DNA of 64,000 nt from contig NC_135180.1 in assembly GCF_041146795.1 (NCBI RefSeq), positions 39,926,794-39,990,793 of the forward strand. Direction: 5' to 3'. The notes beneath the pieces were generated by a model. That model did no database searches, was not told where the DNA came from, and worked only from the letters and a program-made list of their open reading frames with translations. Made by a program: the position numbers and the translations under genes. This document shows, one piece after another, positions 5,643 through 59,538 of the stretch. Each line of letters starts with the position of its first letter. Position 1 is the stretch's first letter. Source of the stretch: Maylandia zebra. Its lineage: Eukaryota; Chordata; Actinopteri; Cichliformes; Cichlidae.

Positions 5643-5849
5643 CACATGATCAGAGCAGGAAAAACACGTTTCTCTCTTTATGTTAATGAACACAATTGTG
5701 CTACACACATCTGTCAAAGTATCTACTTAAAAGTATTCTCTACACAAACGTACCATTGTGTGTTTGTGAAGCTTCGCCTTACTGCTGCCACGCTCACTGA
5801 AACTTTCCCTGATCGCAGAGGCAGCCGTCACTAAAGCTGGAGCTGACTG

Positions 5850-19135: not shown

Positions 19136-20113
19136 TTATTTCTCAATCTGAACAATTTTGATTAATATCCTGCTCTTCCCAACATAACCTAAGAGCAGAT
19201 TTTTACATATGGTCCGTATTTTGGACATGTTCAAGCCATACATGACAGGATTGAAGAGGGGCTGACATGTAAGAAAGTACACTGATAAAAATATCCGTAA
19301 CATGTTTGGAACGTGGCTCATATCAAACCTGCTCTGTAGTATTTCAAAGGAAACCCCAAAAGAAAAGTTGAGCAGAGAAGCGAGGTGAGGCGTGCAGGTG
19401 CTGACGGCTTTCTGTCGGGTCTGTTTGGATCCAGAAAAACAGATTTTCAGGATCCTTGTGTAGGTGTACAGGATTACAGATACTGGGACACACACTGTGA
19501 CAGAGGCAGCAGTGAGCTCATAGAGATTATTAACTGTGGCGTCATGACATCCCAGCTTGATAATGGAGTGATTGTTACAGTACACTTTGTTAATGACATT
19601 TCCACAGAGCTGCAATGAAGCACTCAGACATGTTGTGACACAAACAGCAAGTAAAGGGGGTATCCAGGTCACAGCTATCAGAAGGGCAACTTTATTAGAC
19701 ATCATTAGTGTGTGATATTGAAGAGGATAACAGATGGACATGTATCTGTCATAAGACATGGCAGCTAAGTTACTAAACTCTACACTTCCATATAAGTAAA
19801 TAGAGAAAACCTGCAGGAAGCAGAGAGGAGCAGAAACAGTGTGAACATCAGAGAGGATCTGAAGCAGGAGGAACGGAAACAGCCCTGTACTACCATACAG
19901 CTCATTCACAAACAGGCTGCACAGAAACATGTACATAGGTTCATGTAAGCTTCTGTTCACACAGATAACCACAATCAGCAGGACATTGGAACCTACTGTA
20001 AACACATACAGAGACAAAATAATCATGAAATATAAATATTTAAACATCTGTGTATCAACATAGGCACCAAGAGTAAAATATGAAAACTGTGTGGAGTTTC
20101 TTATGATCTCCAT
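19136..20113 (-). CDS. Odorant receptor 2 (teleost class, 7TM GPCR)
   Basis: 325 residues from an ATG at 20113, the usual length for a single-exon fish odorant receptor. An N-glycosylation site (NST) is at residue 6. TM1 carries SNVLLIVVICVNRSLHEPMY, TM3 ends AMSYDRYMSICYPLQYH, the extracellular loop 2 has LCGNVINKVYCNNH, TM6 starts KAVSTCTPHLASL and TM7 is PLFNPVMYGLN. The frame is intact, so it is probably functional. It is a close paralogue of the genes at 4629 and 42298. A stretch of about 150 bp covering TM2 and the first extracellular loop (19831-19983) appears base-for-base identical to OR3, far closer than the rest of the gene. The ligand cannot be predicted. Confidence 0.96.
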   Translation of the reverse strand: MEIIRNSTQFSYFTLGAYVDTQMFKYLYFMIILSLYVFTVGSNVLLIVVICVNRSLHEPMYMFLCSLFVNELYGSTGLFPFLLLQILSDVHTVSAPLCFLQVFSIYLYGSVEFSNLAAMSYDRYMSICYPLQYHTLMMSNKVALLIAVTWIPPLLAVCVTTCLSASLQLCGNVINKVYCNNHSIIKLGCHDATVNNLYELTAASVTVCVPVSVILYTYTRILKICFSGSKQTRQKAVSTCTPHLASLLNFSFGVSFEILQSRFDMSHVPNMLRIFLSVYFLTCQPLFNPVMYGLNMSKIRTICKNLLLGYVGKSRILIKIVQIEK

Positions 20114-20878
20114 GGTTCACAGCAAGCCAACACTATCCACAGGATACTGTACATTTAGAAGTATTCATACTATGTTAGTGATCCTTTCACCTGCTTTGAA
20201 CTGTGGCATGAATTAGCCAAAATAACCACACAAGCAACACATTATATCACTGAAGGATCATTTGTGACAAAGATCTCAAACTTACCTCTGCACTACAGTT
20301 TAGTGTATGTGTAGTATCAAAAGTCTCTGTAGTCATGTGTAACATGGGACACTGAACGACACACGGACTGAACTGTGACTTCACCTCTGCTTCATTTAAG
20401 CTTTTCACTTTAGTCCCACAGTAGTCTGGTGTCATTACCAAGGGACATGCTTTGCAAACTAAATAGCTCTTTGAAACCAAAAAAATAAACAGTTGCATAA
20501 AAGAAACATCAATCTCAACACAAGGCCAAAGGAAGGGCAGACTGAAAGTATTGATGGATGGATGAATGCATGAGTGGAGGGATGTTTTTCTCATTCACTC
20601 ATGGAGATGTAGCAATGGCTGTCCATGGCTGCCATACAATTTATTTGCTTACAGTGTCTTTCCCTGTGTAATACCAGAAATCACACAGAATGAAACAGAA
20701 ATATGCAAACATGCCCAAACCAGTAGATATTTTTTTCATTTGGATTTAACAGGCTTAAGAGCAGCACTAAAGTGTCCTCTCAGTGCTGCTCTTTGAGTTT
20801 GACGTCTTGGGCCTGTTGCAAGCACTTCCTTCCCTGTACACCCATAGTGGCAGCTTGGTTCATTATTAGTTCATTATT
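20114..20878. other. 5' flank of OR2, no other gene seen
   Basis: No recognisable coding exon. A promoter for OR2 presumably lies here, but no clear TATA or olfactory O/E-type site could be singled out. Confidence 0.4.
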
Positions 20879-25260: not shown

Positions 25261-25392
25261 ATGCGGCAGTGTAAAGTGTGCTCAGTATCAGTTAAAGGTA
25301 GATTGGAGCTACTTACTCATTACAAACTCAAACATCTACACTTTGGACACCTATGCACATTTAAGACATGGAACGCCTTAATTGTGACCTGT
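25261..25392 (+). pseudogene. SAMD3-like family pseudogene, first exon (C2H2 finger)
   Basis: An ATG opens MRQCKVCSVSVKGRLELLTH, with C-x2-C ... H-x4-H spacing (HYKLKH), a C2H2-type finger that begins many members of a large fish gene family. The second finger is damaged: after HFGH the sequence runs straight into LCTFKTWNAL, and its expected first cysteine segment is deleted. A donor-like GTAGGT follows at about 25392. Exon 2 lies past an LTR-element insertion. The family name is from memory and tentative. Confidence 0.5.
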
Positions 25393-25429
25393 GGTAGGTA
25401 CCTATTTAAAATAGGCGTTCGCCGCTTCC

Positions 25430-25782
25430 AAGTAGAAGAGGGAGCAGCGCTGGCAGAATGACTCGGCTGTGGCTGCTCCTGCTGTGATGTGGAAACGCTG
25501 GGTGAGTCGGGTGGCACAATAATGATCCCTAACATCTTGTAGAAAGCTTGAGCTGGTGTAAGCTGGCTGCTCGCGGTCTCATAGTAATCCTCCCGGGACC
25601 GGCGGGAGCGTTTTCTGTGAGACCGGGGCATCCGGGGGGAAGAAGCAGGTGAGTGGACCGAAGGGTAAGCAGCTAGTGAGGAACGGCAGCACGGAGGCCC
25701 TCCAAGCGCTAGCCGGGTCCCGTCAAAGGCTGAGCTGCGCTTCCTCAGTGAGTCTGCTGGATCCATACTGGTCGCGTCGTTC
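25430..25782 (-). pseudogene. Truncated gag-like ORF of the MDPAD family
   Basis: Starts MDPADSLRKR at 25766 (-). It shares FDGTRLALGGP and a basic stretch (HRKRSRRSRED) with the 686-codon ORF at 10657-12717. It is cut off after about 110 codons. It sits directly after the LTR at 25783, in the same order as in the intact element. Confidence 0.72.
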
Positions 25783-26396
25783 TGTCACGGTTGGCTGTGT
25801 GGCAGGCAGGCAAGCAGGAGTGATGGATCCAAAATGCAGGACTCAGACACAGAAGTACAACTTAAAGCGCAGCTTTATTGCCGGAAAACCTCTTACTAAA
25901 CTAAACTCACCAAAAGACAAACAAAAATGCTGGTGAACTAAAACACTGTAGCAGAAATACTGAGCTGGAGACGAAACACTGGCAACACAGAGGCAACCCA
26001 CACACAGCTTGTTGAGGGTCCGACGGACACTGACACTGAGAAACACAGGGCTTAAATACACAGATGGCAGTAATCAAGGGATGAGAGACAGGAGGGGAAC
26101 ACACCTGGGAGAAATCACAGCTGACGAGACAGGGGAAACGTAAACTGAACACACTCACATACGACACAGACCTTCACAATAAAACAGGAAACTCAGACAC
26201 ATGGAACCAGACAAGACATTGAACTAAACAGACAGACTCACAAACAGATGGGGTGACACCAAAGACAGACAGATACAGACGCAGACTCAGAGGCAGACCG
26301 AATATAACACGTAGAACTCAAACAATAATAATCAATAAATTGGAAAATGCTAATAATAAACTTAAAGTGCTGGGTCACCGACCCAGGACCATGACT
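25783..26396 (-). mobile_element. LTR of a second MDPAD-family element
   Basis: Starts TGTCACGGTTGGC and ends GACCCAGGACCATGACT, with an expected terminal CA mutated. Internal landmarks (AACTTAAAGCGCAGCTTTAT, CACAGGGCTTAAATACACAG) parallel the LTRs at 10030 and 12736. This is a different but related subfamily. Only one LTR and part of the gag region remain, inserted in an intron of the SAMD3-like pseudogene. Confidence 0.78.
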
Positions 26397-26473
26397 ATTA
26401 CTGTGCATAATTTGTGTCTACAGTTTAGGGAAAATAATAATTTTATAAAATGCTGCTTGTCACCCTTTGCCAG

Positions 26474-26563
26474 GATGATGTTGATCTTGTGTGTCAATGT
26501 ATTATCAAGGGGCTCTGCGTGTACCTCAACGAAGACCCCAGCAATTTATTGACAGAACATGTG
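26474..26563 (+). pseudogene. SAMD3-like family pseudogene, exon 2
   Basis: Ninety bases bounded by a good acceptor (CCCTTTGCCAG) and donor (GTAAGTG). It encodes 30 codons, DDVDLVCQCIIKGLCVYLNE then DPSNLLTEHV, in phase 0 on both sides. It joins in frame to the exon at 28619. Typical of the conserved domain of the family. Confidence 0.6.
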
Positions 26564-26621
26564 GTAAGTGTTATTATAGAAGGTCAGTTTTATTGAAAAT
26601 AAATGTGGTTGCTTCATGAAC

Positions 26622-27040
26622 TAAACCCATCCATCCATCCATCCATCCATCTTCATCCGCTTTATCCGAGGCCGGCAGCAGCCTAAGCAAAGAGGCCCAG
26701 ACCTCCCTCTCCCCAGCCACCTCCTCCAGCTTGTCCGGGGGAACACCAAGGCGTTCCCAGGCCAGCCGAGAGATATAATCTCTCCAGCGTGTCCTGGGTC
26801 TGCCCCGGGGCCTCCTCCCGGTGGGACATGCCTGGAACACCTCACCCAGGAGGCGCCCAGGGGGCATCCTTGTCAGATGCCTGAACCACCTCAGCTGGCT
26901 CCTTTCGATGTGGAGCAGCAGCTGCTCTACTCTGAGCCCCTCCCGGATGGCCGAACTTCTCACCCTATCTCTAAGGGAGAGGCCAGCCACCCTTCGGAGG
27001 AAGCTCATTTCCGCCGCTTGTATCCGCGATCTCGTTCTTT
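26622..27040 (-). mobile_element. RTE/Rex3-like LINE 3' end
   Basis: Minus strand encodes the ORF C-terminus (MSFLRRVAGLSLRDRVRSS, LRWFRHLTRMPPGRLLGE, GRPRTRWRDYISRLAWERL) and ends in a (GGAT)n tail at 26627-26650. The same LINE copy resumes at 27572 after a 531-bp block. Confidence 0.88.
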
Positions 27041-27571
27041 GTCTTTGTCTTCTACGTAAAATATTTAATGATTCATTTATGTGATGAAGAAAGATGGACA
27101 CATTAAAGACGAAATAACAAACAGGAAATCTGTAGTGGAGAAGAGGAAATGTTGCCACCTGGTGGCTGTGAAAATGATTGCCTGATTATTTGTTCCAGTA
27201 TGATATCATTCTGAGTATTATTCCTCCTACAGATGCTGTCTCTTTTCTCTCTCTTCTTTTTTGAGCTCTTTGATTTGTATTGAAGGAATCTGAAGGATTT
27301 TTCAGCCTGAATTTCTTTTTGTTTGGTTTGAGTTGAGTCTTGATGTTTTTTAATAAATGCATTAACAATGAACTCCATGTTGCATTAAACTGAAGGATCA
27401 TCTTCAGTTTCCAGTAAGTCAGATCAGGTAAAATCTGAAAACTTGCTATCAAGTTCTGTGTACCAGGTTTTGAGGTAGGTGGTTTTGTTGTGGTGCTCGC
27501 TATGGCTCAGGGTCTGAATGTTTGGGTCTGCCTTTTTCCAAACACAGACTCAAAATATTTATGATAATTGT
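27041..27571. repeat. 531-bp block, also present at 38992 and 50462
   Basis: The block interrupts an RTE LINE. A 24-bp LINE sequence is present on both sides (27017-27040 and 27572-27595). The same block follows the same LINE point at 38992-39522 and 50462-50982, apparently without base changes. It has no protein domain; the short ORFs are probably chance. Confidence 0.75.
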
Positions 27572-27960
27572 CTTGTATCCGCGATCTCGTTCTTTCGGTC
27601 ACTACCCACAGCTCGTGGCCATAGGTGAGGGTAGGGACGTAGCTCGACCGGTAAATTGAGAGCTTCGCTTTTACACTCAGCTCCCTCTTCACCACGACGG
27701 ACCGGTGCAGCGTCCACATTACTGCAGCTGCAGCACCAATCCGTCTGTCGATCTCCGGCTCCCTTCTCCCATCACTCGCGAACAAGACCCCGAGATACTT
27801 GAACTCCTCCACTTGGGGCAGGAACTCATCCCCGACCCGGAGTGGGCACTCCACCCTTTTCCGGCTGAGAACCATGGCCTCAGATTTGGAGGTGCTGATC
27901 CTCATTCCCGCTGCTTCACACTCGGCTGCGAACCGTTCCAGTGCGAGCTGGAGGCCTGAC
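27572..27960 (-). mobile_element. RTE/Rex3-like LINE, middle part
   Basis: Continues the LINE at 26622. It encodes LQLALERFAAECEAAGMRIS, STSKSEAMVLSRKRVECPL, EFKYLGVLFASDGRRE and LTYGHELWVVTERTRSRIQ. It lacks the RT palm. The 5' end is truncated near 27960. Confidence 0.88.
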
Positions 27961-28618
27961 CTTGACCTCTGGGATTTTGAAAATGATCTAAGATTTTCAA
28001 ACTTATGCCACAGGTGTATCTGCTGGTGACTGGGGGATACCACTGGCAGCCCCCAGTTTGTATGTGTTTTTTATTCTAAAATGAATAGACATAACTGAAA
28101 ATGATTAGACTATTTAGCTATGGAATCTTGTTTTATCTACATGCTGAAATGCCACAATTTCACTTTTTAATGGACACATTTAATAAATATTGGGGCCATC
28201 TTATTTATTAGAAAAATACTGTATGGCCTGGAAGACTTTAAAAAAAATATTCATGAAATACTTGGATCCAGCTAATGTCTGGGTTTTAGATCATAGTTTA
28301 GTACAGTTCAGATGCTAGTATCTCCACATTTATTGCTTTTGACGAAATTAACATAATAACCAAAAACCAGACTAAATTGACAAGCTTGTTTTGTGTCAGT
28401 CATTACTTTGTAAAAATACTGCTTTATTCAGCATCCTTGTCTATATGGGTTAGAGAAGATGTTATGTTTAGGTGTTTCACGTTTTTTTTTCTTCTACATG
28501 TGTTAGGTCCATGTATTGAGGTCATAGTTGAACACCTCTTCATTCTCTGACAGTATTCTGTTTCTTTGCAATGACCAGTGTTCTGTTGAATTTAATTTTG
28601 GGAATGTGCATTTTCCAG
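27961..28618. other. Intron of the SAMD3-like pseudogene
   Basis: AT-rich sequence with no recognised element, ending in the acceptor GCATTTTCCAG at 28608-28618. Confidence 0.45.
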
Positions 28619-28930
28619 GCCACAGATGAAGGAGTTATCCAACAATCTATTGAGGAAACAACCATGGGAATCTACATCATCAAGTCAAGAGATGCCAGTG
28701 ACAGCCCTGAGGACATCGGGGTAGTCCTTGAAGGCCAGAGAGTCTAGTAGGATTTGGATAACTGTGCCCTAGCAGCTGCTATGCTATTTGGATTAATGTA
28801 CACTTTGAACCTGACCTACCCCCCGGAACTGAAGTATACCTTCGAGGTATTACAGAAACTGGTTATGGAGCTCGAAGGGAACAGCCTTTCAAAGACGGTC
28901 CAGGTTCTCAAGAACAGACTGTACGAGTGA
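28619..28930 (+). pseudogene. SAMD3-like family pseudogene, last exon
   Basis: 312 bases, 104 codons in phase with exon 2. Conserved features: TTMGIYIIKS, DSPEDIGVVLEGQRV, then AMLFGLMYTLNLTYPPELKY and FEVLQKLVMELEG, ending LKNRLYE and TGA. Two adjacent in-frame TAG codons at 28745-28750 interrupt it between GQRV and DLDN. It is therefore a pseudogene unless the stops are sequencing or strain differences. A paralogous, open version of the same exon lies at 35110-35389. The biochemical function of the family is not established. Confidence 0.65.
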
Positions 28931-29100: not shown

Positions 29101-32100
29101 CAGAGATGGGCAGTAACGCGTTACTTGTAAAGCGTTACTGTAATCCGATTACTTTTTTCAAGTAACAAGTAAAGTAAGGGATTACTATTGCAAAAACGGT
29201 AATTAGATTACCGTTACTTTCCCGTAGGAAAGCTACGTTTCTGCGTTACTAAAACCGTGATTTTTTGCGAGAATGTCTCACGACAGTGACGTAAGCGAGT
29301 GCGCCGTTGTGACAACAGCTGTGTGCAGATCAACAATGGATCACATATCGAGTGAAGGAGAGAGTATGAGCGTGCAGCGTTTAAAGCGTGGAAGTACTGA
29401 CCTTACTTTGAGTTTGATTCCATAAAAAGTGACAAAAACATTAGCGTCCATCGTGCGTGGGAAGAAAACTTCTTTTTACAGCAAAAAAAAACCCCAAACG
29501 CCTGAGCAAGCACCGAGTAGCTACGACGTGATGGGAAACTCACAGAGCTGCCATATCCTTCCACTGACTGCTGCACACCTGCACCAGGGTAAACCTCCGC
29601 CTACCGCACTCCTGCTTTACAGGTGAAAATAGAGCAACAGGACCGCTGAGTCTTTGACTTTATTTATTTTCTGCTGTGTTTTACGTGCATCTATTTGAAA
29701 GACTGAGTGTAAACACAAATAAAAAAAAAAACACCCAGCACGCCCCTGCGGGCGGTTTATCCTTCAAGCTCGGGTCCTCTACCAGAGGCCTGGGAGCTTG
29801 AGGGTCCTGCGCAGTATCTTAGCTGTTCCCAGGACTGCGCTCTTCTGGACAGAGATCTCCGATGTTGTTCCTGGGATCTGCTGGAGCCACTCGCCTAGCT
29901 TGGGAGTCACCGCACCTAGTGCTCCGATTACCACGGGGACCACCGTTACCTTCACCCTCCACATCCTCTCGAGCTCTTCTCTGAGCCCTTGGTATTTCTC
30001 CAGCTTCTCGTGTTCCTTCTTCCTGATATTGCTGTCATTCGGAACCGCTACATCGATCACTACGGCCATCTTCTTCTGTTTGTCTACCACCACTATGTCC
30101 GGTTGGTTAGCCACCACCATTTTGTCCGTCTGTATCTGGAAGTCCCACAGGATCTTAGCTCGGTCATTCTCCACCACCCTTGGGGGCATCTCCCATTTTG
30201 ACCTCGGGACTTCCAGGTTATACTCGGCACAGATGTTCCTGTACACTATGCCGGCCACTTGGTTATGGCGTTCCATGTATGCCTTGCCTGCTAGCATCTT
30301 GCACCCTGCTGTTATGTGCTGGATTGTCTCTGGGGCATCTTTACACAGCCTGCACCTGGGGTCTTGCCTGGTGTGATAGACCCCAGCCTCTATGGATCTT
30401 GTGCTCAGAGCTTGTTCTTGTGCTGCCATGATTAGTGCCTCTGTGCTGTCTTTCAGTCCAGCTTTGTCCAGCCACTGGTAGGATTTCTGGATATCAGCCA
30501 CCTCCTCTATCTGCCGGTGGTACATACCGTGCAGGGGCCTGTCCTTCCATGATGGTTCCTCGTCTCCCTCCTCTTTCTTGGGTTTCTGCTGCCTGAGGTA
30601 TTCACTGAGCACTCGGTCAGTTGGGGCCATCTTCCCAATGTATTCTTGGATGTTCGTTGTCTCATCCTGGACTGTGGTGCTGACACTCACCAGTCCCCGG
30701 CCCCCTTCCTTCCGCTTAGCGTACAGCCTCAGGGTGCTGGATTTGGGGTGAAACCCTCCATGCATGGTAAGGAGCTTTCTTGTCTTTATGTCAGTGGCTT
30801 CTATCTCCTCCTTTGGCCAGCCTATTACCCCAGCAGGGTACCTGATCACGGGCAGGGCGTACGTGTTGATGGCCCGGATCTTGTTCTTACCGTTCAGCTG
30901 ACTCCTCAGGACTTGCCTGACCCTCTGCAGGTACTTGGTGGTTGCAGCTTTTCTAGCGGCCTCTTCATGGTTCCCATTCGCCTGTGGGATCCCCAAGTAC
31001 TTGTAACTGTCCTCTATGTCTGCAATGTTGCCTTCTGGTAGTTCAATCCCCTCAGTTCTGACTACCTTCCCTCTCTTTGTTACCATCCGACTACACTTCT
31101 CCAGTCCGAACGACATTCCAATGTCATTGCTGTATAGCCTGGTAGTGTGGATCAGTGAATCGATGTCTCGTTCACTCTTGGCATACAGCTTGATGTCATC
31201 CATGTACAGGAGGTGGCTGACAACTGCTCCGTTCTGTAGTCGGTATCCGTAGCCAGTCTTGTTAATGATCTCACTGAGGGGGTTCAGGCCTATGCAGAAC
31301 AGCAGTGGGGACAGAGCATCTCCTTGGTAGATCCCGCACTTGATGGTGACTTGTGCTATGGGCTTGGAGTTGGCCTCTAGTGTTGTACGCCACATCCCCA
31401 TTGAGTTCCTGATGAAGGCTCTTAGGGTCCCATTGATCTTGTACAATTCTAGGCATTCCAGTATCCAGCTGTGGGGCATTGAGTCATAGGCCTTCTTGTA
31501 ATCAATCCAGGCAGTGCACAGGTTGGTCAGTCTGGTCTTGCAGTCTCGGCTGATTGTTCTGTCTACCAGTAGCTGGTGTTTTGCGCCTCTGGTATTCTTG
31601 CCAATTCCTTTCTGTGTCCCGCTCATGTATTGACCCATGTGCCTGTTCATCTTAGCCGATACGATGCCTGACAGGAGCTTCCATGTAGTACTGAGGCAGG
31701 TTATTGGTCGGTAGTTGGAGGGGACCGGTCCCTTCTTGGGGTCCTTGGGGATCAGGACCGTCCGGCCTTCAGTTAGCCATTCCGGGTGTCTTTCGTTAAC
31801 TAGCAGCTGGTTCATTTGTGCTGCCAGACGCTCGTGGAGTGCAGTCAGCTTCTTCAGCCAGTAGGCGTGAACCATGTCGGGCCCTGGTGCTGTCCAACTC
31901 TTCATACTGGAGACCCTTTCTTGGATATCTGCCACTGTGATGGTTACTGGACCCTGTTCAGGGAGGTCGCTGTGGTCAGCCCTCAGATCCTCTAGCCACT
32001 GAGCATTGCCGTTATGGGTTGCATCCTTCTCCCATATGCTCTTCCAGTATTGCTCCGTCTCCAGCCTTGGTGGTGCTGTTCTCTTATTGTTCCCTTGCCA

Positions 32101-33595
32101 CTGAGAGTACACCTTTGCTGGTTCTGTGGAGAACAGCTGGTTTATTCTCCTGCCTTCTATCTCTCTGGTGTACCTCCTCAAGCGGCTGGCCAAGGCTGTG
32201 AGTCTTTGCTTGGCAGTCTCCAAGGCCTCAGGTATGGACAGCTTGCTGTATTTCTTAGGCACCTTATTTGTCGCACCTTTCTGCAACTCCGTTAGTTGGC
32301 TAACCTCCCTCCGTGCTACTTTGATCTTGCCCTCTACACTCTAAAAAGTAATTAATGTGACCTTTAGTCATTACTTACATATATATGTTGTTGTGAAATG
32401 AAAAATCAAGTTCATAAATACTGTTAGACTTCCTAATTAAAAATTTTATTTTATTGAGTTCGGGTGACACATAAATTATGCCTCTTTACTCAATATATAA
32501 TCGTGATTTGTCTGAATTTAAAATCTTCTATTAATCAAAAAACAATATAATTTTAAGTTCTGTCGATGTAAAATACAACTTGATGATGTGTAAACAGCTC
32601 ACAGTTCCCTTCTTCTACTCAAGCGGACATATTCAACAGCACGTGTTCAAGGTTTATCATAGCTGTCTTTAGCTGTGTTCGTCGCGAACGGTGAGTAATT
32701 TTATGCGAAATTACACATATTTGCAGTCGCTCTGGATTTTGTTAGTTTACTTTAAAACAACGACGTAACATACATAACATACATCTTAGCTTGCCCCCGC
32801 GTTTGTGTGTTTCAATATACACACAGCAGCTAATTCCACGATAGCATAAATTGTTGGGCTCTTTTTGGAAAATTTAACACTGACGTTACTCTAATGCAGA
32901 CCACTGTAATTGTCTTATAATTATTAAAAGATAGCGGACGTTGTTAGCCCCGGCGCTAACTACTATGCTAACGTAGCTAGCCAAGCTAAGTTGTGTTCAC
33001 TGTGATTTTATTTTTGAAATGTGAAATTTATTTTTTGAAGGGAAGCATTTTATGTTAGTAATTGTTAAGAAACGCTTCTAAATTTTCGTAACGTTACGGG
33101 GTGAAGTTCAACCCCATTGGCTTCTGCGCAGTCGGTCGCCATTAGTCCGGTGTGTCTGTTGACCGCTAAGAGCGGTTCTTCACCGTCTGCTCGGCCTATT
33201 TTCACAGGTAAAAGACCAGACACCATCTTGGTTGGGTCCCCATTCGCCGCCAGTGCATTTTTTCTACTGAGGAATGTATTCACCCATGGTAAATAAGGAA
33301 AATGTTTAAATATTTTTCCAAACGGATAAGGCAAGAAAGGTCAATAATCCCACATATGGTTTCAGTAGTATGCCAGTTTTTGCAACACTAGGGTGCACAA
33401 AAATGACCATAGCTGCTGACTCAGCATTGATTCCAATTTGGTTTTGGAGAATGAAATGAAAACAGATCAAGTGGGATTATTGACATTGTAGCTTGTGTAT
33501 AAAAAGTTTGGGGTTTTTTTTGTATTTACTGTCAGAAATGATTCTGTCCTGTCATGCCACACCTTATGTTTGCTTTTGTTGATAAAAAACAACTA

Positions 33596-33597
<2 letters not shown>

Positions 33598-33675
<78 letters not shown>
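33598..33675. repeat. (AT)n microsatellite
   Basis: About 38 uninterrupted AT units. A segment of about 55 bp to its right (33704-33765) is an imperfect inverted copy of 33205-33290, which includes ATTCCTCAGTAGAAA. Confidence 0.97.
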
Positions 33676-33678
<3 letters not shown>

Positions 33679-35109
33679 TTTTTTTGTTTGTTTTTTGAGT
33701 TAACACATTCCTCAGTAGAAATACATGCACTGGGGGCGAGTGGAGACCCCTCCAAGATCGCGATCGGTGGGGATACACGCTCCAACAGACTGGCCCAGTC
33801 CATGTCACCTCTATGTATATTTGATCTATGGAAAGCCACGTTAGGCTTTCCAGCACCCAGTGTATTCAGGTCTATGTAGTTTTGAATGTTTGGTTCTAGC
33901 TCACACAGCTTTGACAGGTGAAACTTATTCACTGTATTGAAGACTCACAGGTGAAGTTGAAAATACCATCTTTTGTATTTTTGTGCAGGCACAACTTTCT
34001 GGTGTTATACACTGTCCTGGCGTTGCAGATCTAGGGGTTCCAGTTAAGACGTGGTCAGCCTTCTAAAGAAAGTGGGAATCTCACCGAAATATTCAGTTAC
34101 TTTGCTGTGTTTCTTGCCAGGACAAAGGCTCAAACCATCATCTTCTCCTGGTACCAAGGGACCTTCTTAACAAGTAAGCTTGAATTGAGTAATTCAGAAT
34201 CATGAATCATGCTGACTGCAAATGAAAAGTATGAATTGACATGAAGGATTTTCAGAAGCCGATTTGGACTTGGGACTACATTACGACAAAGCACTGCTGT
34301 AAGCCTCCACATGGTTATAACACAGCAGTTGAAGCCACTGCCGACCAGTGTCTATAAACCAACATGCTATTTGTGCAATATTTCTTCAACAAATCAAAGA
34401 TCCATCCATTGTTACTGCAGCTTACCATGCTTGTATAGTAGTGGCTGTGTGTGTTTGTTTATGGAAGCTGGAGGCTTTTCCAACTGTTGCGTTATATCCA
34501 TGCACCATACAGTGGATGTTTACAGCGGTGTTTGTCGTAACTGCAATGTAGTCTCAAGTCTAAATCAGCTTCTGCAAATCTTCCGTGTTACTTTTGCACT
34601 TTTCATTTGCCGTGAACATGATTACTAAGCTCCCAAGAAATATTTGTTTTCATTACTGAGTCATTTTAATCACTTTTGCACACAACATGCTAGCACCTGC
34701 TATTCACTTACATTGTTTATGCTCTGCTAAAGCAAATGGATTGCTTCCGGAGAATTAGTGTGCTGTTTACAAAAGGCTTGTTTCTCACTTTCTAACTGTG
34801 ACAATATGGCAATAGATAAAATTTCACTTAGAAGTGGAATAACCCTTAAAAATGATTTATTAGATTTTCTTTTCAAAGTGGAAAAACAAAACTGTGAAAA
34901 ACAAGACATTTTTTATTTTAAACGTTGGATTATGGTTTAATTTAGCTTTTAAAAATTACAGAATGACAAAGTAAAATCACTGAAAAACACAAAAGACAAC
35001 CTGTTTTAGCTTATTTTCCTACCTGTAGTAGTTCATTCCCTTATGCACGTCATCCTGAAGTGCTTGAGCTATGTATTTTATACATCCTAACATTTAATTT
35101 CTCCTACAG

Positions 35110-35389
35110 GGATGAGGAGGAGCTCAACGCAGACCTTGCAATGCAAATCATGAAGATTGCTATCATTGGTGATGGGCCTGCAACCATCATCGTTGAGGGA
35201 TCCAAGATCCTGGAGAGGATTGATGTTGCCAGATCCTGTGCTTTGATGATGGGAGTAATCTACGCTCTGAACCTTACCTATCCCAAGCAGCTGAAATTTA
35301 CCTTTGAGGTATTTCAAAAGCTATGCCTTGAGCTTGATGGACAAAAAGCCAGCTCTAAAGTAATGAATCTTAAGTTTGGTATTTTCTAG
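35110..35389 (+). CDS. SAMD3-like family terminal exon inside a transposon
   Basis: The acceptor TTTCTCCTACAG at 35098-35109 opens an exon that stays in frame to TAG at 35387. It encodes DEEELNADLAMQIMKIAIIG, then PATIIVEGSKILE, ARSCALMMGVIYALNLTYPK, QLKFTFEVFQKLCLELDG and NLKFGIF. It aligns along its length with the pseudogene exon at 28619-28930 (YALNLTYP...FTFEVFQKL versus YTLNLTYP...YTFEVLQKL). Unlike that one it has no internal stops. Upstream coding exons were not identified with confidence, so this may be the tail of a gene whose other exons are non-canonical, or a captured fragment. It lies wholly within the TIR element at 32337-36815. Confidence 0.6.
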
Positions 35390-36412
35390 AGCAGACTTGA
35401 TAGACCATTCGTGAGTGAGTTTCACAAAAACCTTATTCCTGCATTTCTGGCACTACTTCAATGTGTTTTACTAAATTTTAAAGCGCTGTTCTTAAGTCTT
35501 CTGAGTTAATGTTTTGCCGTGCCTTAAATGCTGTTATTTGCACATTTTTAAGGAATGCGTTTAATTTCTCCCATGACCTGTGTTCTGAGGGTATTGGTGT
35601 GTTTTAAAGTTTGTGTAATGCCCTCTTTAGCTGGCCTTAATCTTGAGGGTGAAAAGTCAAATATAGAAGAGAATCAAGAATACTTTGTAAGAGTGCTGAC
35701 AAAGTTGAATGAAAGAAGCTTTGCTCATTTTATGTTTAAATTAGTGCATTTAATGTATAGCAGCCTGTCATCTATTGTTTTGATTCACTGTCACATGTTA
35801 AAGTTAAAAAAAAGAGGATTCAAGTAGTAGGTTGTATTACAATTTTAATACACAGCTCATTAAGTTTCAGCAGGCAACTTGTGTTCTAGGAAACTGAAGC
35901 CCACAAATCTTGCACTTCACACGCACGTTAAAGAATTGTGATGTTTGTTATTGTAATTAAATGGGTCTAACTCATTTGAATACATCTTTCTGAATTTCTA
36001 TTCTTTCTGAGCACCAGGTACGAGTCCCTTAGCTGATGTCCAGGTATTTGGCATCACATCTGCCGCATTCAAACAAATACACACAACATCCATTTCTTTT
36101 TCTGAAGGTCATGACACAAGAGCACACACAGCGCATGTTAAGGCTGACCTTCGTTTGGGGAAAAAAGTGATCGACAAGTTTCTAAGGTCTTAGAACCTTG
36201 ACTTCTTTGTGGGCAGGCACCACCATGCATGAGCCTGCCCACGCGGTAGTCATGGTTATAAGACACAGCTTTTGATCAAGGTTGTATTTTGGAGCGACTT
36301 AGCCTGCTGGGAAACAGGTAAATGCCCTTATAGAATCTCCTGTAGGACCAAAAAATTACTACACTGTAACCAAAATATCATATTTGACCAACATAAATAC
36401 TATTTATGCCGA
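35390..36412. other. 3' part of the transposon, no further exon seen
   Basis: Mostly AT-rich. A GC-containing inverted pair near 36209-36245 (GTGGGCAGGC ... GCCTGCCCAC) could form a hairpin. Confidence 0.45.
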
Positions 36413-36720
36413 CAGTTAAGTTCATTTTAATTATAAATGTGTTTTATTTTGATCAAAAAGCTACTTCACCATACATAAATATAATCTTGGATCAACTTAA
36501 ATTCCTGTGTATTTGTTGACAATTATTAAGTTCATGTTACTCAGAATGTGTTTTTTTTTTGTGGCCAAAAAGTAACTTCACTATACGTAAAATTCACGTT
36601 GGATCAACTTAAATTTTTGTGTTCTAGTCGAAAATTATTAAGTTAATTTTACTTAAGAATGTTTTTAATTGTGGCCAAAAAAGCTACTTCACCATACTCA
36701 AAAATATTGCTTTGAATTAA
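36413..36720. repeat. Three subterminal tandem repeats of about 110 bp
   Basis: Units near 36413, 36526 and 36639 each contain a TTAAGTT...GAATGTGTTTT segment, then AAAAAGCTACTTCACCATAC and, in the first two, GGATCAACTTAAAT. Subterminal repeats of this sort are common transposase-binding arrays in DNA transposons. Confidence 0.6.
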
Positions 36721-37565
36721 TGCTATTCTGCCAGAAGTTGGCTTAACTCAAAAATTCTAGTGGAAAACGTTAACATGTTTTTTTTATTTGAACCAATGTT
36801 TTATTTATTAGAGTGTAGCCTCCTTCTCCATGGAGGGTACTGCCCCTTGTCGCTGTTCAACTTGTAGCCAAGCATCTCACTGATCACTGCTGCCGTATTG
36901 TAGATCAGCTTGTTAGTGTCGGTAATCGTGGTTGTAGGTATTGCCCGTAGTGCTGCATTAACATCATCTAGCAGACCTTCTGAGGGTACTTTACGTAATC
37001 TTGGTAACCGGCTACGGGGGATCCAAGTTTCAAGCTCCTATTTTTCAGGTCAGTTCCTCTCGCACTCAACGATCCTTCTCCTATCGCACTTGGGGCTATG
37101 TACCCAATCTCGGGTGGGGGTGATGATATCTCCCCCCTGACCTGGCGTCCTGACTCCTTCTTGCCGTAGCATTTGTGTTGTACCTCGTCAATCTCTAGCT
37201 GTGAGAGCAGTCCCTTCTTTCGAATGTTGGAACACTGAGCTACTAGTTGTTTCGCCGTCATTGTGGATGTTGGGTATCGAAGAATCCATAGGTCCCTCAT
37301 CCTATTCATGTAGCCCCTTCCGCCGGGGTTACTTGCATAGTAGCATTCCAACAACGCCCTGTTTTCGTCTCTTGCCCACCGATGCCTTCTTGTTCCAGTA
37401 GCCCACTTTTCGTCAGGGTGCCCTGGTTCCTCAACACCTGACGCGGACCTTGTTGATCCGGGCGACGTCCGAGCCGGCATGCCTTCATATTTATCTGTCT
37501 CGCTCATGTCTGCGGTAGGCTTGCTTAGCATAGGGGGTCTAGCCTTAGGACCCTTACTGGATACA

Positions 37566-37676: not shown

Positions 37677-38574
37677 GGGCTGGAATGTGCAGAAAATAGG
37701 TCTAAATATTACATTTTTGCTTGATGCATAAAGTTAAAAGATTAAAACTGATAAAACAAGTTTTAAAAAGAGACTTTTCCATTTGATTACATTTTGTATG
37801 ATGGATTATGCAGAAAAAGTAGAATTGGGCTGAAAGATCTATCACTTTATCACCTACTCAGGTTGTAAATCGTGTTTTTAAAAAGTAACTAAGTAACTAA
37901 GTAATTAATTACTTTTGAAAATAAGTAATCAGTAAAGTAACGGGATTACTTTTTTGGGGAAGTAATCAGTAATTAGTTACTGATTACTTTTTTCAAGTAA
38001 CTTGACCAACACTGGTAGCGAGCCTGACGCTCAGTGTCCTTTTATTCTTTTAACATATTTTTCTGTGTTGTATTTCAGTGAAAGGAGGACGAGCCAGTGG
38101 CCCTGGGACCTCAGGTGGTGGGTCGTTTTCACACTTTCTTTTGTACAGCACCGGGTGGGCTGTAGTGATTTTCTTTTTGTGTGATTTTCTTTTGGGTCCA
38201 CGGCTGCTGGTGAGGCCAAGTTCCATGATTGTTTTACTTTGTCTTGTGTGTAGTCTTCAGTCATTAATGATTCAATGATATGTGCACATGAATGAACTTC
38301 ATCAGCAGGTTCTGAATGGGTTAAACACAGAGCGATGAGAGTTAACAGACTCGGTAAACCAGCTCCGAAGGACTTGGCTCCATCTAGTGGACATTCTTAG
38401 AATAACTATCAGTTTCTAAAAATGGTCTTTGTATTCCAGGTTGTATTTAGCTGTCAGTTTACAGGCTGATCTGTTCTTTCATGTTGATGTATTTTGTATT
38501 TAGCTCCATCTAAAGCACAGAGAGCTCTGGTTTATATTTCTGTAATTCTAATGTCTCAGTTTTAAATGGTCTTT

Positions 38575-38991
38575 GTCTTCCATCCATCCATCTTCATCCG
38601 CTTTATCCGAGGCCGGGTCGCGGGGGCAGCAGCCTGAGCAAAGAGGCCCAGACCTCCCTCTCCCCAGCCACCTCCTCCAGCTTGTCCGGGGGAACACCAA
38701 GGCGTTCCCAGGCCAGCCGAGAGATATAATCTCTCCAGCGTGTCCTGGGTCTGCCCCGGGGCCTCCTCCCGGTGGGACATGCCTGGAACACCTCACCCAG
38801 GAGGCGCCCAGGGGGCATCCTTGTCAGATGCCCGAACCACCTCAGCTGGCTCCTTTCGATGTGGAGCAGCAGCTGCTCTACTCTGAGCCCCTCCCGGATG
38901 GCCGAACTTCTCACCCTATCTGTAAGGGAGAGGCCAGCCACCCTTTGGAGGAAGCTCATTTCCGCCGCTTGTATCCGCGATCTCGTTCTTT
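38575..38991 (-). mobile_element. RTE/Rex3-like LINE 3' end (copy A)
   Basis: Same part of the ORF as at 26622-27040, ending in a short GGAT tail. It carries a GGTCGCGGGG stretch missing from that copy. 5' limit exactly at the start of the 531-bp block. Confidence 0.88.
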
Positions 38992-39522
38992 GTCTTTGTC
39001 TTCTACGTAAAATATTTAATGATTCATTTATGTGATGAAGAAAGATGGACACATTAAAGACGAAATAACAAACAGGAAATCTGTAGTGGAGAAGAGGAAA
39101 TGTTGCCACCTGGTGGCTGTGAAAATGATTGCCTGATTATTTGTTCCAGTATGATATCATTCTGAGTATTATTCCTCCTACAGATGCTGTCTCTTTTCTC
39201 TCTCTTCTTTTTTGAGCTCTTTGATTTGTATTGAAGGAATCTGAAGGATTTTTCAGCCTGAATTTCTTTTTGTTTGGTTTGAGTTGAGTCTTGATGTTTT
39301 TTAATAAATGCATTAACAATGAACTCCATGTTGCATTAAACTGAAGGATCATCTTCAGTTTCCAGTAAGTCAGATCAGGTAAAATCTGAAAACTTGCTAT
39401 CAAGTTCTGTGTACCAGGTTTTGAGGTAGGTGGTTTTGTTGTGGTGCTCGCTATGGCTCAGGGTCTGAATGTTTGGGTCTGCCTTTTTCCAAACACAGAC
39501 TCAAAATATTTATGATAATTGT
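38992..39522. repeat. 531-bp block (copy A)
   Basis: Second occurrence of the block at 27041-27571. Here its right side continues into unrelated sequence (AAATCCTTAATG) rather than LINE. Confidence 0.8.
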
Positions 39523-42297: not shown

Positions 42298-43290
42298 TTA
42301 ACAATAACTCTGACTTTGGTGGCTTTTGGAGAAGATATCACTGCTACAACTGAACAAACGTGTCAGTGAACCACAAAACAGCTGTTTACATGCAATGCGT
42401 ATTTTGGTCATTTTCAGCCCGTACAGTAGCGGTGTGAAGAGCGGCTGGCATGTCAGAAAGTACAATGATGATAAAATGCCAAAAACATTTGGCACACCAC
42501 TGGTGTCAAATCTGCTTTGTAATATCTGAAAACAGCAACCAAAGAAAAAGTTCGAGATGGAGGCGAGGTGAGGCGTGCAGGTGCTGACGGCTTTCTGTCG
42601 AGTCTGCTTGGAGCCAGAAAAACAGACTTTGAGGATCCTCACGTAGGTGTACAGGATTAAAACAAGAGGAATAATGACAGAGATGAAAGTGTAAATGAGT
42701 CCAAAGATGTTGTGGACTCTGGTGTCAGAGCAGGCCAGTTTAATGATGGCGTAGTTTCCACAAAAAACTTTATTGATGACGTTTCCACAGAGCTGTAGAG
42801 GAGCACTCAAAGATATAAGCACGACAATCATAATAAAAGGTAATAACCATGTCAGAGAAATCAGCGAGGTGACTGTTTTAAGTGTCATACATGATTTATA
42901 TTGAAGAGGCCAGCAGATGGCATAATATCTGTCATAAGACATGACGACAAAGTTTATAAACTCCACACAAGCATAAGTGTACACACAGAAAACCTGCAGG
43001 AAACAAAATGAAACAGAAACAGTGTGAACATCAGAGAGGATCTGAAGCAGGAGGAACGGAAACAGCCCTGTACTACCATACAGCTCATTCACAAACAGGC
43101 TGCACAGAAACATGTACATAGGTTCATGTAAGCTTCTGTTCACACAGATAACCACAATCAGCAGGAGGTTCGCACAAATGATTGCAGCATAAGACGTAAG
43201 AATAATGAGGAAATACAAGTATCTGTATGCACCAGTGTCAAAGTAGGGACTTAGAGTGAAATGTGTAATCTCTGTAGTGTTTATCATCAT
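42298..43290 (-). CDS. Odorant receptor 3 (teleost class, 7TM GPCR)
   Basis: 330 residues from an ATG-ATG pair at 43290. An N-terminal N-glycosylation site (NTT) is present. TM1 continues into CVNRSLHEPMYMFL, TM3 ends VMSYDRYYAICWPLQYK, loop 2 has LCGNVINKVFCGNY, TM6 starts KAVSTCTPHLASI and TM7 is PLFTPLLYGLK. In TM7 the common NP of NPxxY is TP, a variant seen in some receptors that may alter coupling. The frame is intact and it is presumed functional. Same orientation as the other two receptors, so all three descend from tandem duplication, now spread by transposon DNA. Confidence 0.95.
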   Translation of the reverse strand: MMINTTEITHFTLSPYFDTGAYRYLYFLIILTSYAAIICANLLLIVVICVNRSLHEPMYMFLCSLFVNELYGSTGLFPFLLLQILSDVHTVSVSFCFLQVFCVYTYACVEFINFVVMSYDRYYAICWPLQYKSCMTLKTVTSLISLTWLLPFIMIVVLISLSAPLQLCGNVINKVFCGNYAIIKLACSDTRVHNIFGLIYTFISVIIPLVLILYTYVRILKVCFSGSKQTRQKAVSTCTPHLASISNFFFGCCFQILQSRFDTSGVPNVFGILSSLYFLTCQPLFTPLLYGLKMTKIRIACKQLFCGSLTRLFSCSSDIFSKSHQSQSYC

Positions 43291-43874
43291 CCTTGAGGCT
43301 CAGAATACCTCACAGGAACTTGTTTCTTGTTCTTTTCTTGCAGGTTACCTGAAGTTCAGTTAACGTCACATAACAGGAACAGCTTGGAAACATTCTCCAA
43401 ACATACCATTCTGCTATACAATACAAAAACTGAGACACTGCACAGCACAGCCTGACTACCAGTCGCTCCCCACTGAGCTGCAACTGTGTAACCCATTCAC
43501 ATCAGTTTAAATGTGCACAAACAGCATGACCTCATTACCCATCACCCACGGGTCCATCCTTGTTTCTGAAAGTACGAAGATGAGAGACACAGCAGTAGTT
43601 AGTAGTTAGCACCATCAGCAGCAGGAGCAGCAGAAACACCTCAACAGCTACGTTTGCTTTGCCTTGCCCCACCTCACAGCAGTGATATAGTATGATGCAA
43701 TCCCATATTAGATTCTTGATGAATGTGTGTTGTTGTTATTCAGCCTGGTTCAATGTGCCCCTTTTTAACTTTGAGCACCCGCCCCTTTAAACGTCTCTGC
43801 ACGGCCCTGCCTGAGAGCAAACTGCTGCTGAAGCTGAACCATCACCTCACTGAGTGAAGAATATGCAGAAATAG
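43291..43874. other. 5' flank of OR3
   Basis: No coding signal. It presumably contains the receptor promoter. Nothing specific recognised. Confidence 0.4.
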
Positions 43875-47578: not shown

Positions 47579-49367
47579 CCGTATTTTCACGACCATAAGA
47601 CGCACTGTACTAAAAGGCGCAGTCTCAGTTATGTGTGCCATTACTGTATTTAACACACACATAAGGCGCACTGGATCATAGGGCGCATACAAGTACCGTA
47701 TGCGTATTTAAAAATAAAGCGGGAGCAAACCTGAATTCGGTACCTTACTCACATTTTTATTACCAGTAATCGTCATCATCAACAACACACAAGCATACAA
47801 GTGTGCGTATTTAAAAATAAAGCAGGAGCAAAACTGAGTTTGGTACTCACGTTTTTATCATCAATCAAACCCATGGAAGTCCTCATCCTCTGTGTCTGAA
47901 TTGAACAGCTGCGCTAAATCTCCATCAAACATGCCAGGTTCACTTTCTTCACCGTCAGAGTCACTTTCCGTGCCGTGCGGCTCCTCGGAAATGATGCCGG
48001 CTTTTGCGAAAGCTCGAACAACAGTGCCAGCAGACATGTTAGCCCAAGCATCTACAATCCATTGGCAAATTGTGGCGTAACTCGCCCGGCGCTGCCTTCC
48101 ACTCTTAGTGAAACTGTGGTCTCCATCGGTCATCCATCGCTCCCACGCCGCTCGCAGCCTTACTTTGAACGGGCGGTTCACACCGATGTCCAGCGGTTGG
48201 AGTTCCTTTGTCAGGCCTCCTGAATGACAGCAAGCTCACAGTTCATTTGTTTCACTAGTTTTTTTCACATCGGCTGTGAGATGGGCACGCATAGAGTCAC
48301 AGATCAACAGCGATGGTGATGCGTGGAAAAAACCACCTGGTCTCCTTACATGCACCTCCCTCAGCCACTCTTTCATCGTTTCCTCATCCATCCAGCCCTT
48401 TTCATTTGCCTTAATGATGATTCCTGCTGGAAACTTCTCTTTAGGCAAAGTCTTTCGCTTAAAAATCACCATAGGCGGCAGTTTCTGTCCATTAGCACAA
48501 CAGTAAAAGAAGACTTTTCATACCCCGTTGTGCGTATCGCTACCGTGCTGGTCCCCTTCTTCTCCACAGTGTGACTCACCGGGATGTCAAAAGTGAGCGG
48601 GACCTCGTCCATGTTAGTGATGTGGCTGGGCTGGATGTCTTTGTCGCCGATGTGTTTGCTGCAGTAGGAGCTGAAGATGGCCAGCTTTTCCTTATAATCC
48701 GCTGGAAGTTGCTGCGCTGCCGTAGTCCCGGTCCTGATGGAAAAATGGCACCGTTTCATAAAACGAAAGCACCAAGACGGACCTCCTCGGAAATGTTCAA
48801 TGTTCATCTCTTCAGCTAGTGAAACTGCTTTTAGCCGAATGGTGACCGTCGAAACGCTTCTCCCGCTCGCTCTTTGCTCGATGATCCACCGCTCGAGTCT
48901 TTCCTCCAACTCGGGCCACCTCGCCTTATGTCCGCGGAAACTCAGCTGCGTCTTCTTGACCTGCCGGAGCTTGTTTTCCAGCTTCCTCCATTTGCGAACC
49001 ATTGATTCGTTAATCTTAAATTCTCTCACTGCTGCTCGATTTCCATGTTCCTCCGCGTAGCTGATGGCCTTCAGTTTAAACTGTGCTTTGTAAGCGTGTC
49101 TCTTTGCCATTTTCAGGGTTGTTAAAACAACGATGTCTTGCATAATGCACATACCTGTTCTTTTATACAGGTATGTGCGATTGTCCCGGTATATACGATC
49201 AACGCCCACACTTCACCCTTTAACGTTCTCATGGTGTTCTCTACTACGTCCTCCTTACAACACATAGGGCGCACTGCGCTATAGGGCGCACTGCGCTATA
49301 GGGCGCGCCGCACTTTTTGAAGAAAATCTAAGACTTTTAAGTGCGCCTTATAGTTGTGAAAATACGG
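47579..49367 (-). mobile_element. pogo/Tigger-like DNA transposon
   Basis: 1789 bp with terminal inverted repeats of about 27 bp (CCGTATTTTCAC...GCGCAC, three mismatches) and a TA duplication at 47577-47578 and 49368-49369. Excision restores AAGTAACTAAGTAATT exactly as in hAT copy A. A 17-bp tandem repeat (GCGCTATAGGGCGCACT) lies near 49270-49300. Confidence 0.93.
47861..49110 (-). pseudogene. pogo-like transposase, two frameshifts
   Basis: Starts MAKRHAYKAQFKLKAISYAE with a helix-turn-helix (INESMVRKWRKL) and a CENPB-type second DNA-binding segment (WPELEERLERWIIEQR). The DDE domain is recognisable: TNMDEVPLTFD (first Asp), LLICDSMRAHL (second Asp), LQPLDIGVNRPFK (third Asp). The C-terminus is acidic (ESDSDGEESEPG, NSDTEDEDF). 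The frame breaks near 48470 (small deletion after SSFTVVL) and again near 48190-48240, so it needs two corrections to be complete. It probably cut and pasted at TA sites before it decayed. The damage is light, so the insertion is recent. Confidence 0.9.
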
Positions 49368-50044
49368 TAAGTAATTAATTACTTTTGAAAATAAGTAATC
49401 AGTAAAGTAACGGGATTACTTTTTTGGGGAAGTAATCAGTAATTAGTTACTGATTACTTTTTTCAAGTAACTTGACCAACACTGGTAGCGAGCCTGACGC
49501 TCAGTGTCCTTTTATTCTTTTAACATATTTTTCTGTGTTGTATTTCAGTGAAAGGAGGACGAGCCAGTGGCCCTGGGACCTCAGGTGGTGGGTCGTTTTC
49601 ACACTTTCTTTTGTACAGCACCGGGTGGGCTGTAGTGATTTTCTTTTTGTGTGATTTTCTTTTGGGTCCACGGCTGCTGGTGAGGCCAAGTTCCATGATT
49701 GTTTTACTTTGTCTTGTGTGTAGTCTTCAGTCATTAATGATTCAATGATATGTGCACATGAATGAACTTCATCAGCAGGTTCTGAATGGGTTAAACACAG
49801 AGCGATGAGAGTTAACAGACTCGGTAAACCAGCTCCGAAGGACTTGGCTCCATCTAGTGGACATTCTTAGAATAACTATCAGTTTCTAAAAATGGTCTTT
49901 GTATTCCAGGTTGTATTTAGCTGTCAGTTTACAGGCTGATCTGTTCTTTCATGTTGATGTATTTTGTATTTAGCTCCATCTAAAGCACAGAGAGCTCTGG
50001 TTTATATTTCTGTAATTCTAATGTCTCAGTTTTAAATGGTCTTT

Positions 50045-50461
50045 GTCTTCCATCCATCCATCTTCATCCGCTTTATCCGAGGCCGGGTCGCGGGGGCAGC
50101 AGCCTGAGCAAAGAGGCCCAGACCTCCCTCTCCCCAGCCACCTCCTCCAGCTTGTCCGGGGGAACACCAAGGCGTTCCCAGGCCAGCCGAGAGATATAAT
50201 CTCTCCAGCGTGTCCTGGGTCTGCCCCGGGGCCTCCTCCCGGTGGGACATGCCTGGAACACCTCACCCAGGAGGCGCCCAGGGGGCATCCTTGTCAGATG
50301 CCCGAACCACCTCAGCTGGCTCCTTTCGATGTGGAGCAGCAGCTGCTCTACTCTGAGCCCCTCCCGGATGGCCGAACTTCTCACCCTATCTGTAAGGGAG
50401 AGGCCAGCCACCCTTCGGAGGAAGCTCATTTCCGCCGCTTGTATCCGCGATCTCGTTCTTT
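50045..50461 (-). mobile_element. RTE/Rex3-like LINE 3' end (copy B)
   Basis: Same as the LINE end at 38575-38991, with one observed base difference. Confidence 0.88.
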
Positions 50462-50982
50462 GTCTTTGTCTTCTACGTAAAATATTTAATGATTCATTTA
50501 TGTGATGAAGAAAGATGGACACATTAAAGACGAAATAACAAACAGGAAATCTGTAGTGGAGAAGAGGAAATGTTGCCACCTGGTGGCTGTGAAAATGATT
50601 GCCTGATTATTTGTTCCAGTATGATATCATTCTGAGTATTATTCCTCCTACAGATGCTGTCTCTTTTCTCTCTCTTCTTTTTTGAGCTCTTTGATTTGTA
50701 TTGAAGGAATCTGAAGGATTTTTCAGCCTGAATTTCTTTTTGTTTGGTTTGAGTTGAGTCTTGATGTTTTTTAATAAATGCATTAACAATGAACTCCATG
50801 TTGCATTAAACTGAAGGATCATCTTCAGTTTCCAGTAAGTCAGATCAGGTAAAATCTGAAAACTTGCTATCAAGTTCTGTGTACCAGGTTTTGAGGTAGG
50901 TGGTTTTGTTGTGGTGCTCGCTATGGCTCAGGGTCTGAATGTTTGGGTCTGCCTTTTTCCAAACACAGACTCAAAATATTTA

Positions 50983-59382: not shown

Positions 59383-59512
59383 TCCATGATCGCAACCCAA
59401 ACTACCATCAGCGTCTCACTGTAACAAAGCCCAACAATATGAGCAGACATACGTCAGTTTGGTGTTGTGTTTCCTGCTCTTACTGATGTATGATTGTAAA
59501 GAGTTGTTCTCC

Positions 59513-59531
59513 TCTCTCTCGTCCTCTACAG
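59513..59531 (+). promoter_or_regulatory. Splice acceptor before the cysteine-rich gene
   Basis: A pyrimidine-rich run ends CTCTACAG, seven bases before the ATG at 59539. This implies an upstream non-coding exon that I could not locate. Confidence 0.6.
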
Positions 59532-59538
59532 AGCTAAA

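Follow-up and report, generated by a model that had tools for sequence, protein, structure and literature searches.

An internally deleted transposon of Maylandia zebra, very probably of CACTA/EnSpm type, retains the last exon of a SAMD3-like gene encoded by its full-length relatives

CACTA/EnSpm elements insert with a target site duplication (TSD) of 2-3 bp that has no one fixed sequence; Tc1/mariner, Mirage and other TA-only groups use a TA target at every insertion. The plant En/Spm (CACTA) element encodes a TNPD/TNP2 transposase plus TNPA, with one promoter and alternative splicing leading to either open reading frame (ORF), and CACTA elements also capture pieces of host genes. Here we analyse a 4479-bp insert within 64,000 nucleotides of the cichlid Maylandia zebra (contig NC_135180.1; this whole stretch is referred to below as the window) and conclude that it is very probably a non-autonomous CACTA/EnSpm (CMC) transposon that arose by a 7.75 kb internal deletion, that its full copies encode a C2H2-finger DDE transposase (ORF1) and a SAMD3-like protein (ORF2), and that the exon retained by the insert is the final one of ORF2. 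The family name SAMD3-like, which we presume to apply to ORF2, could not be confirmed.

Among fish, the accessible part of one study describes a large CMC-EnSpm element of zebrafish that has two full proteins as well as a short (13 bp) terminal repeat, CACTCAAAAAAAT, along with similar full-protein CMC-EnSpm elements in Trachurus (PMC11202377), and likely active CMC-EnSpm families that are piRNA (PIWI-interacting RNA) targets are mentioned for cichlids in the available portion of another (PMC11753138). The elements described here resemble the zebrafish one in being large fish CACTA elements with short terminal repeats and two proteins; unlike the present case, however, the accessible part of PMC11202377 neither names the second protein nor links it to a family annotated as a host family.

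An initial annotation of the window had proposed an exactly bounded insert of 4.48 kb with terminal inverted repeats (TIRs) within a long interspersed nuclear element (LINE), and this is borne out to the base. The insert begins with TA followed by CACTCTAAAAAGTAA at 32337 and ends with TTATTTATTAGAGTG followed by TA at 36815, and its host is a minus-strand reverse-transcriptase LINE ORF (RVT_1 match, E 7.9e-26). All genome searches were run in one genome, the 962 Mb assembly containing the window. A 260-nt query, made by joining 130 nt from each flank with the TA counted once, found the empty site uninterrupted elsewhere, as the best 40 of 1057 candidates all span the junction at 99-100%, 13 of them being identical (100%) over the full 260 nt. 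Both the boundaries of the insert and its TA duplication are thereby fixed to the base, and a recent insertion is suggested by how closely the flanks match other LINE copies. The CACTCTAA ends agree exactly over 8 bp and at 13 of 15 positions between the termini. These terminal repeats are short: past the terminal 15 bp the two ends are unrelated, and no alignment between them beats dinucleotide shuffles. The features at and around the boundaries are:

32337..36815, plus strand: non-autonomous, internally deleted element, very probably of CACTA/EnSpm type, 4479 bp (terminal repeats, TSD, empty site, long relatives)
32335..32336, no strand: left copy of the TA target site duplication (boundary, TSD comparison, empty site)
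36816..36817, no strand: right copy of the TA target site duplication (same basis)
32337..32351, plus strand: left terminal inverted repeat, CACTCTAAAAAGTAA
36801..36815, minus strand: right terminal inverted repeat, reading CACTCTAATAAATAA on the minus strand
29779..32340, minus strand: downstream part of the interrupted LINE ORF (RVT_1; its first codons come from the insert)
36801..37037, minus strand: upstream piece of the interrupted LINE ORF (its last few codons run into the insert)

The initial annotation raised the questions of whether other copies with these ends exist, whether they contain the gene and whether longer ones carry a transposase; all three were found. The left-end query (364 bp) matched 14 places at at least 95% identity and the right-end query (476 bp) gave 13 rows representing 11 distinct places, two rows being second pieces. 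Both ends are paired in 10 copies (4431, 4479, 6369, 6825, 9059, 12538, 12597, 12845, 13074 and 13765 bp), and every one of the ten contains the exon, which is interrupted by a stop in the C8 copy. Twelve copies of the exon are 97-100% identical, and all have at least one end adjoining: ten lie between paired ends, and the remaining two have a left end only (C20:16.48 Mb) or a partial right end only (C21:28.5 Mb). The TSD is a perfect 2 bp in all eight copies with both flanks compared (the C8 and C16 copies, for which the right flank alone was covered, are left out), comprising six TA and two TG. The TA duplication of the initial annotation thus stands for the window copy but is not a constant of the family.

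Two long copies compared whole share the same order of left end, ORF1 (884 codons), ORF2 exon 1, last exon and right end, with ORF2 exon 1 lying in a 379-codon open frame about 110 bp after the ORF1 stop. Both the 884 codons of ORF1 and the 379 codons of ORF2 exon 1 are open in four long copies (C2, C20, C25 and C15); the 13,074-bp C16 copy has no transposase among the matches listed. Only 22 mismatches (and 21 gap columns) separate the C20 and C2 copies in 10,757 aligned columns, and the copies are therefore young. Comparison with the long copies shows that the window element was derived by deletion from one of 12.5-13.8 kb; it is collinear with two of them save for the deletion, gaps of up to ~160 bp and an (AT)n tract. 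The breakpoints fall at position 1869/1870 of the window element and 2230/9978 of the C20 element, with about 2 bp of microhomology at the junction as judged by eye. The identical internal deletion recurs in the C4 copy, which has its own TA and flanks unrelated to those of the window copy, so the deleted form, being present at a second independent site, moved or was copied after the deletion had occurred. The internal features of the window element are:

32501..33100, plus strand: promoter-like stretch rich in CpG (observed/expected 1.2-1.55) and close to the left end, putative promoter
34121..34173, plus strand: acceptor-like (...TTGCCAG) and donor-like (GTAAGC) sites (comparison with the full copy C20)
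34204..34206, no strand: junction of the ~7.75 kb internal deletion, in which ORF1 and most of ORF2 were lost (alignment to the full-length C20 copy)
35110..35389, plus strand: last exon of ORF2 (SAMD3-like protein), 92 codons and stop (open frame, acceptor, comparison with copies)
35636..35743, plus strand: 108-bp fragment downstream of the ORF2 last exon, 58% like ORF1 residues 157-192
36416..36706, plus strand: subterminal tandem repeat at the right end, with a 112-bp unit present 2.6 times

The open, spliced-looking exon first noticed at 35110-35389 holds up, with an open frame at 35111-35389 directly preceded by a consensus-like acceptor. A two-exon, in-frame reading in which 34121-34173 is spliced to this exon was dropped as a coincidence, because 34121-34173 precedes ORF1 in the full copy, away from the last exon. 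This segment, just upstream of ORF1 in the full copy C20, is most likely the ORF1 leader and not an ORF2 exon. As for the subterminal tandem repeats proposed initially, they are present at the right end only, and a direct comparison of the left and right subterminal regions found no repeat common to both. We also observed that 52 bp of the 35636-35743 fragment is 88% identical to ORF1 DNA in the long copies, an internal duplication, and that two imperfect inverted repeats are nested in the element (33225-33263 / 33720-33758 and 34205-34310 / 34512-34623), the former surrounding the (AT)n tract, whose length differs between copies.

ORF1 and ORF2 are linked far beyond the window family. The ORF1 search gave 53 rows, two of which were dropped as second pieces of listed genes, leaving 51 scored places (the best 51 of 684 candidates, 41-100% identical), and at 47 of these 51 transposase places ORF2 lies downstream on the same strand with a gap of 87-1148 bp, where 0.19 would be expected if the two were unlinked. 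Counting only the 150 scored genome-wide matches of the ORF2 last exon (the best of 658 candidates), at least 30 of the 51 transposase places have a last exon within 15 kb, in all 30 on the same strand. With five further rows from a second ORF1 query, the ORF2 rows that have a listed transposase within 15 kb came to 53 out of 112 (for 108 scored places), again without exception on the same strand (53/53). For the eight best-ranked ORF2 rows without a listed transposase, the 3 kb upstream contained ORF1 sequence in every case, five of these loci having about 400 amino acids of ORF1 or more. How identical a locus is to the query in ORF1 correlates with how identical it is in ORF2 (Spearman 0.82, n=47 pairs; 0.74 over 33 distinct value pairs). 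When the C20 family is compared with the C14 family, dN/dS amounts to 0.15 in ORF1 and 0.19 in exon 1 of ORF2 at a dS of about 1.3, which is near saturation. In this genome, the 47/51 linkage and the eight further loci support the earlier suggestion that the multicopy SAMD3-like family owes its copy number to transposition, and the ORF1-ORF2 linkage likewise supports the protein being part of the element's machinery rather than a passenger.

We examined four further families (C14, C13, C17 and C33). In three of them, whose ORF1 is 70, 54 and 43% identical, the terminal repeats agree exactly over 11, 16 and 11 bases (CACTCTAAAAA, CACTGTAAAAACTGTG and CACTGTAAAAA, respectively), lengths reached by 0 of 300 flank shuffles in each, and both genes are bracketed by 2-bp TSDs (CA, TA and TA). 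On the question raised by the initial annotation, whether SAMD3-like genes are regularly flanked by such ends and TA, three of the four further families thus have ends with a 2-bp TSD, which is not strictly TA.

ORF1 encodes 884 amino acids with N-terminal C2H2 fingers (below the Pfam cut-off, yet in all three families scanned). Residues D357, D449, C469-x2-C472, H681-x3-H685 and E705 are invariant across three aligned ORF1 families, the second and third being 70% and 53% identical to the first, and a fourth (E17, 43% identity) has the same motifs by eye. The motif order, D-D-C2C-H3H-E, is that of CACTA/EnSpm (CMC) elements; the assignment of the putative catalytic residues, including which D is catalytic, is a prediction from sequence. 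ORF1 had no match in viral contigs, in prokaryote contigs or in a PDB search.

ORF2 appears by eye, from translations, to have four coding exons: a long first, two short and the last. Of the three families scanned, one has a PB1-like start of exon 1, with a match (E 0.042) that stays below the cut-off of PF00564. No SAM_1 domain, by which membership in SAMD3 was judged, lies within 60 kb of any of the 112 ORF2 rows (on the basis of 103 of 116 SAM_1 rows; each of the 13 left out is within 12 kb of one that was included), and the ORF2 first exons of three families had no SAM match in Pfam. There was likewise no match of ORF2 in viral contigs or of the window exon in phage records or viral contigs, and only one chance-level match of ORF2 exon 1 in PDB (E 0.4). 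Rfam gave no match at gathering score, and a single-sequence fold of the 92-residue exon (pLDDT 65) was too poor for a structure search.

How such elements might move can be proposed on this basis. ORF1 supplied by other copies would cut at the CACTSTAAAAA ends and thereby move full and deleted copies alike, with deleted copies such as that of the window relying on ORF1 in trans. ORF2 may act as an accessory or regulatory protein of this reaction in the manner of TNPA. Because only a short stretch, lacking a poly(A) signal, lies between ORF1 and ORF2, we infer that a single promoter near the left end, where the CpG-rich stretch is found, serves both, alternative splicing yielding either ORF1 or ORF2; in the three elements tested, no AATAAA or ATTAAA occurs in the 600 bp after ORF1.

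Several observations weigh against a CACTA/EnSpm element that carries ORF2 as its own second gene. Three left ends on C7 have neither a right end nor the exon among the matches listed, and four of the 51 transposase places (C9:33.7, C1:38.8, C15:26.6 and C24:0.8 Mb) have no ORF2 among them; at C9:33.7 Mb, where the ORF1 frame is intact, this is possibly a true loss of ORF2. Conversely, 59 of the 112 ORF2 rows have no transposase among the matches listed within 15 kb, and in three of the eight such loci checked, only 26-75 amino acids of the ORF1 N terminus adjoin ORF2. The C33 family has no convincing terminal repeats within 17.7 kb, and the end search in the further families considered only ends starting with CACT or CAC, so that their first bases were presupposed. 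Finally, the transposase profiles match below threshold: tnp2 (PF02992) gave E 0.15 and 0.02 in two families, with a best score of 14.5 bits against a curated cut-off of 28.6, and Plavaka (PF18759) gave E 0.004 in the third family, below its curated cut-off. It is thus the ends, the TSD and the order of the motifs that assign the element to CACTA/EnSpm. The tnp2 model presumably derives from plant tnp2, from which animal members may have diverged too far to be matched, hence we do not treat its cut-off as defining.

Could the ends instead belong to another TA-duplicating superfamily (Mirage, ESTA, ISL2EU/PHIS or Tc1/mariner)? Six of the eight duplications in the window family are TA, and ESTA is, in the available text of PMC12730594, a TA-duplicating group within the CACTA-Mirage-Chapaev-Transib assemblage; the same text gives C(2)C and H(3-4)H motifs for the DDE transposases of CACTA/EnSpm, Mirage, Chapaev and Transib alike. 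However, TA is not found at every insertion, as TG occurs in the window family and CA in a further family, and we consider this alternative very unlikely. CACT termini were found in the window family, where the empty site fixes the ends, and in three further families, where the search was confined to CACT or CAC starts, though not in C33; the C(2)C and H(3-4)H motifs lie between the second D and E in three aligned families and, by eye, in a fourth; and the two-protein architecture recurs at 47 of 51 transposase places. The resemblance to plant En/Spm extends to CACT ends, a short duplication, two proteins, subterminal repeats, dSpm-like internally deleted derivatives and a transposase with a weakly tnp2-like region; unlike in plant En/Spm, the transposase has N-terminal C2H2 fingers and the subterminal repeat found, with its 112-bp unit, is confined to one end. 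Plavaka, an EnSpm relative, shares the C2C/H3H arrangement, and one ORF1 matches it weakly (E 0.004), but Plavaka termini are TGT..ACA or CATCA..TGATG as given in the accessible part of PMC12730594.

The other alternatives concern how ORF2 came to lie between these ends. The window by itself shows one exon in one element, and captured host pieces are known in CACTA, so that a host SAMD3-like gene might have been taken up and now be a passenger. Such a one-off event predicts a single family and decay, but the same gene occupies the same place and orientation beside transposases that are only 41-70% identical, and it diverges in step with the transposase at low dN/dS; a capture ancient enough to precede the family split would by now have become the element's own part. 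Gene capture is accordingly very improbable in our estimation. Even less credit can be given to a composite, in which a short element with these ends was later hit by a separate exon-carrying element: a second TA with CACTGTAACC does occur inside the element at 36362 and other inverted repeats are nested within it, but the exon is present in 10/10 paired copies and the window copy follows the two long copies collinearly apart from the differences described above. We regard it as equally far-fetched that ORF2 is an independent host family beside which EnSpm elements prefer to insert. The 59 ORF2 rows without a listed transposase would fit this, but ORF1 or a fragment of it lies upstream at all eight such loci checked, the gaps are confined to 87-1148 bp with the same strand in 47/47, and both genes lie between TIRs in the three further families with ends found.

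The preferred reading, a CACTA/EnSpm element with ORF2 as its second gene, also bears on a neighbouring segment of the window, described initially as a pseudogene of the same family as the exon. The kinship holds, but the segment is probably a decayed older element of the same kind and not a lone pseudogene, because a remnant of an ORF1-type finger is followed by ORF2-type exons on the same strand:

25261..28930, plus strand: probable older relic of a related element (ORF1-type finger, ORF2-type exons)
25270-25380, plus strand: ORF1 finger remnant (E 0.001-0.01, 26-38%)
about 26468-26570, plus strand: ORF2-type middle exon, by eye
28604-28924, plus strand: ORF2 last exon with two stops, matching the window exon (E 2e-15)

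Elsewhere in the window, ORF translations reveal near-identical stretches at 38031-39457 and 49501-50927, ~11.5 kb apart. Three long open frames (4629-5726, 19136-20116, 42298-43299, minus strand) resemble olfactory receptor genes by eye, matches to HTH_Tnp_Tc5 and DDE_1 at 47861-48235 and 48466-49212 (minus strand) point to a pogo/Tigger-like transposase that is apparently broken, and a 445-residue open frame at 59500-60837 apparently encodes, as judged by eye, a secreted protein with cysteine-rich repeats.

As an element it belongs to a kind already known; a SAMD3-like family as its second protein was not found in the literature searched, and no published tie between SAMD3-like genes and EnSpm emerged from the open-licence literature (Repbase and subscription papers lay outside the search). 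We offer only tentatively, and consider rather doubtful, the wider proposal that the multicopy SAMD3-like genes of fish are, as an entire family, second proteins of CACTA transposons, functional counterparts in animals of TNPA made by alternative splicing around the transposase, and that the single-copy vertebrate SAMD3 would then descend from a CACTA ORF2 that was domesticated and fused to a SAM domain. SAMD3 appears in an enrichment table in the accessible part of PMC10298005. In this genome, a family that resembles an expanded host family appears to consist largely of transposon genes, and if this is true in other fish, studies of gene-family expansion and selection would be affected. Now that a two-gene CACTA element of an animal is available in full, with copies that are young and open and a deletion derivative to set beside them, the role of the second protein becomes directly testable.

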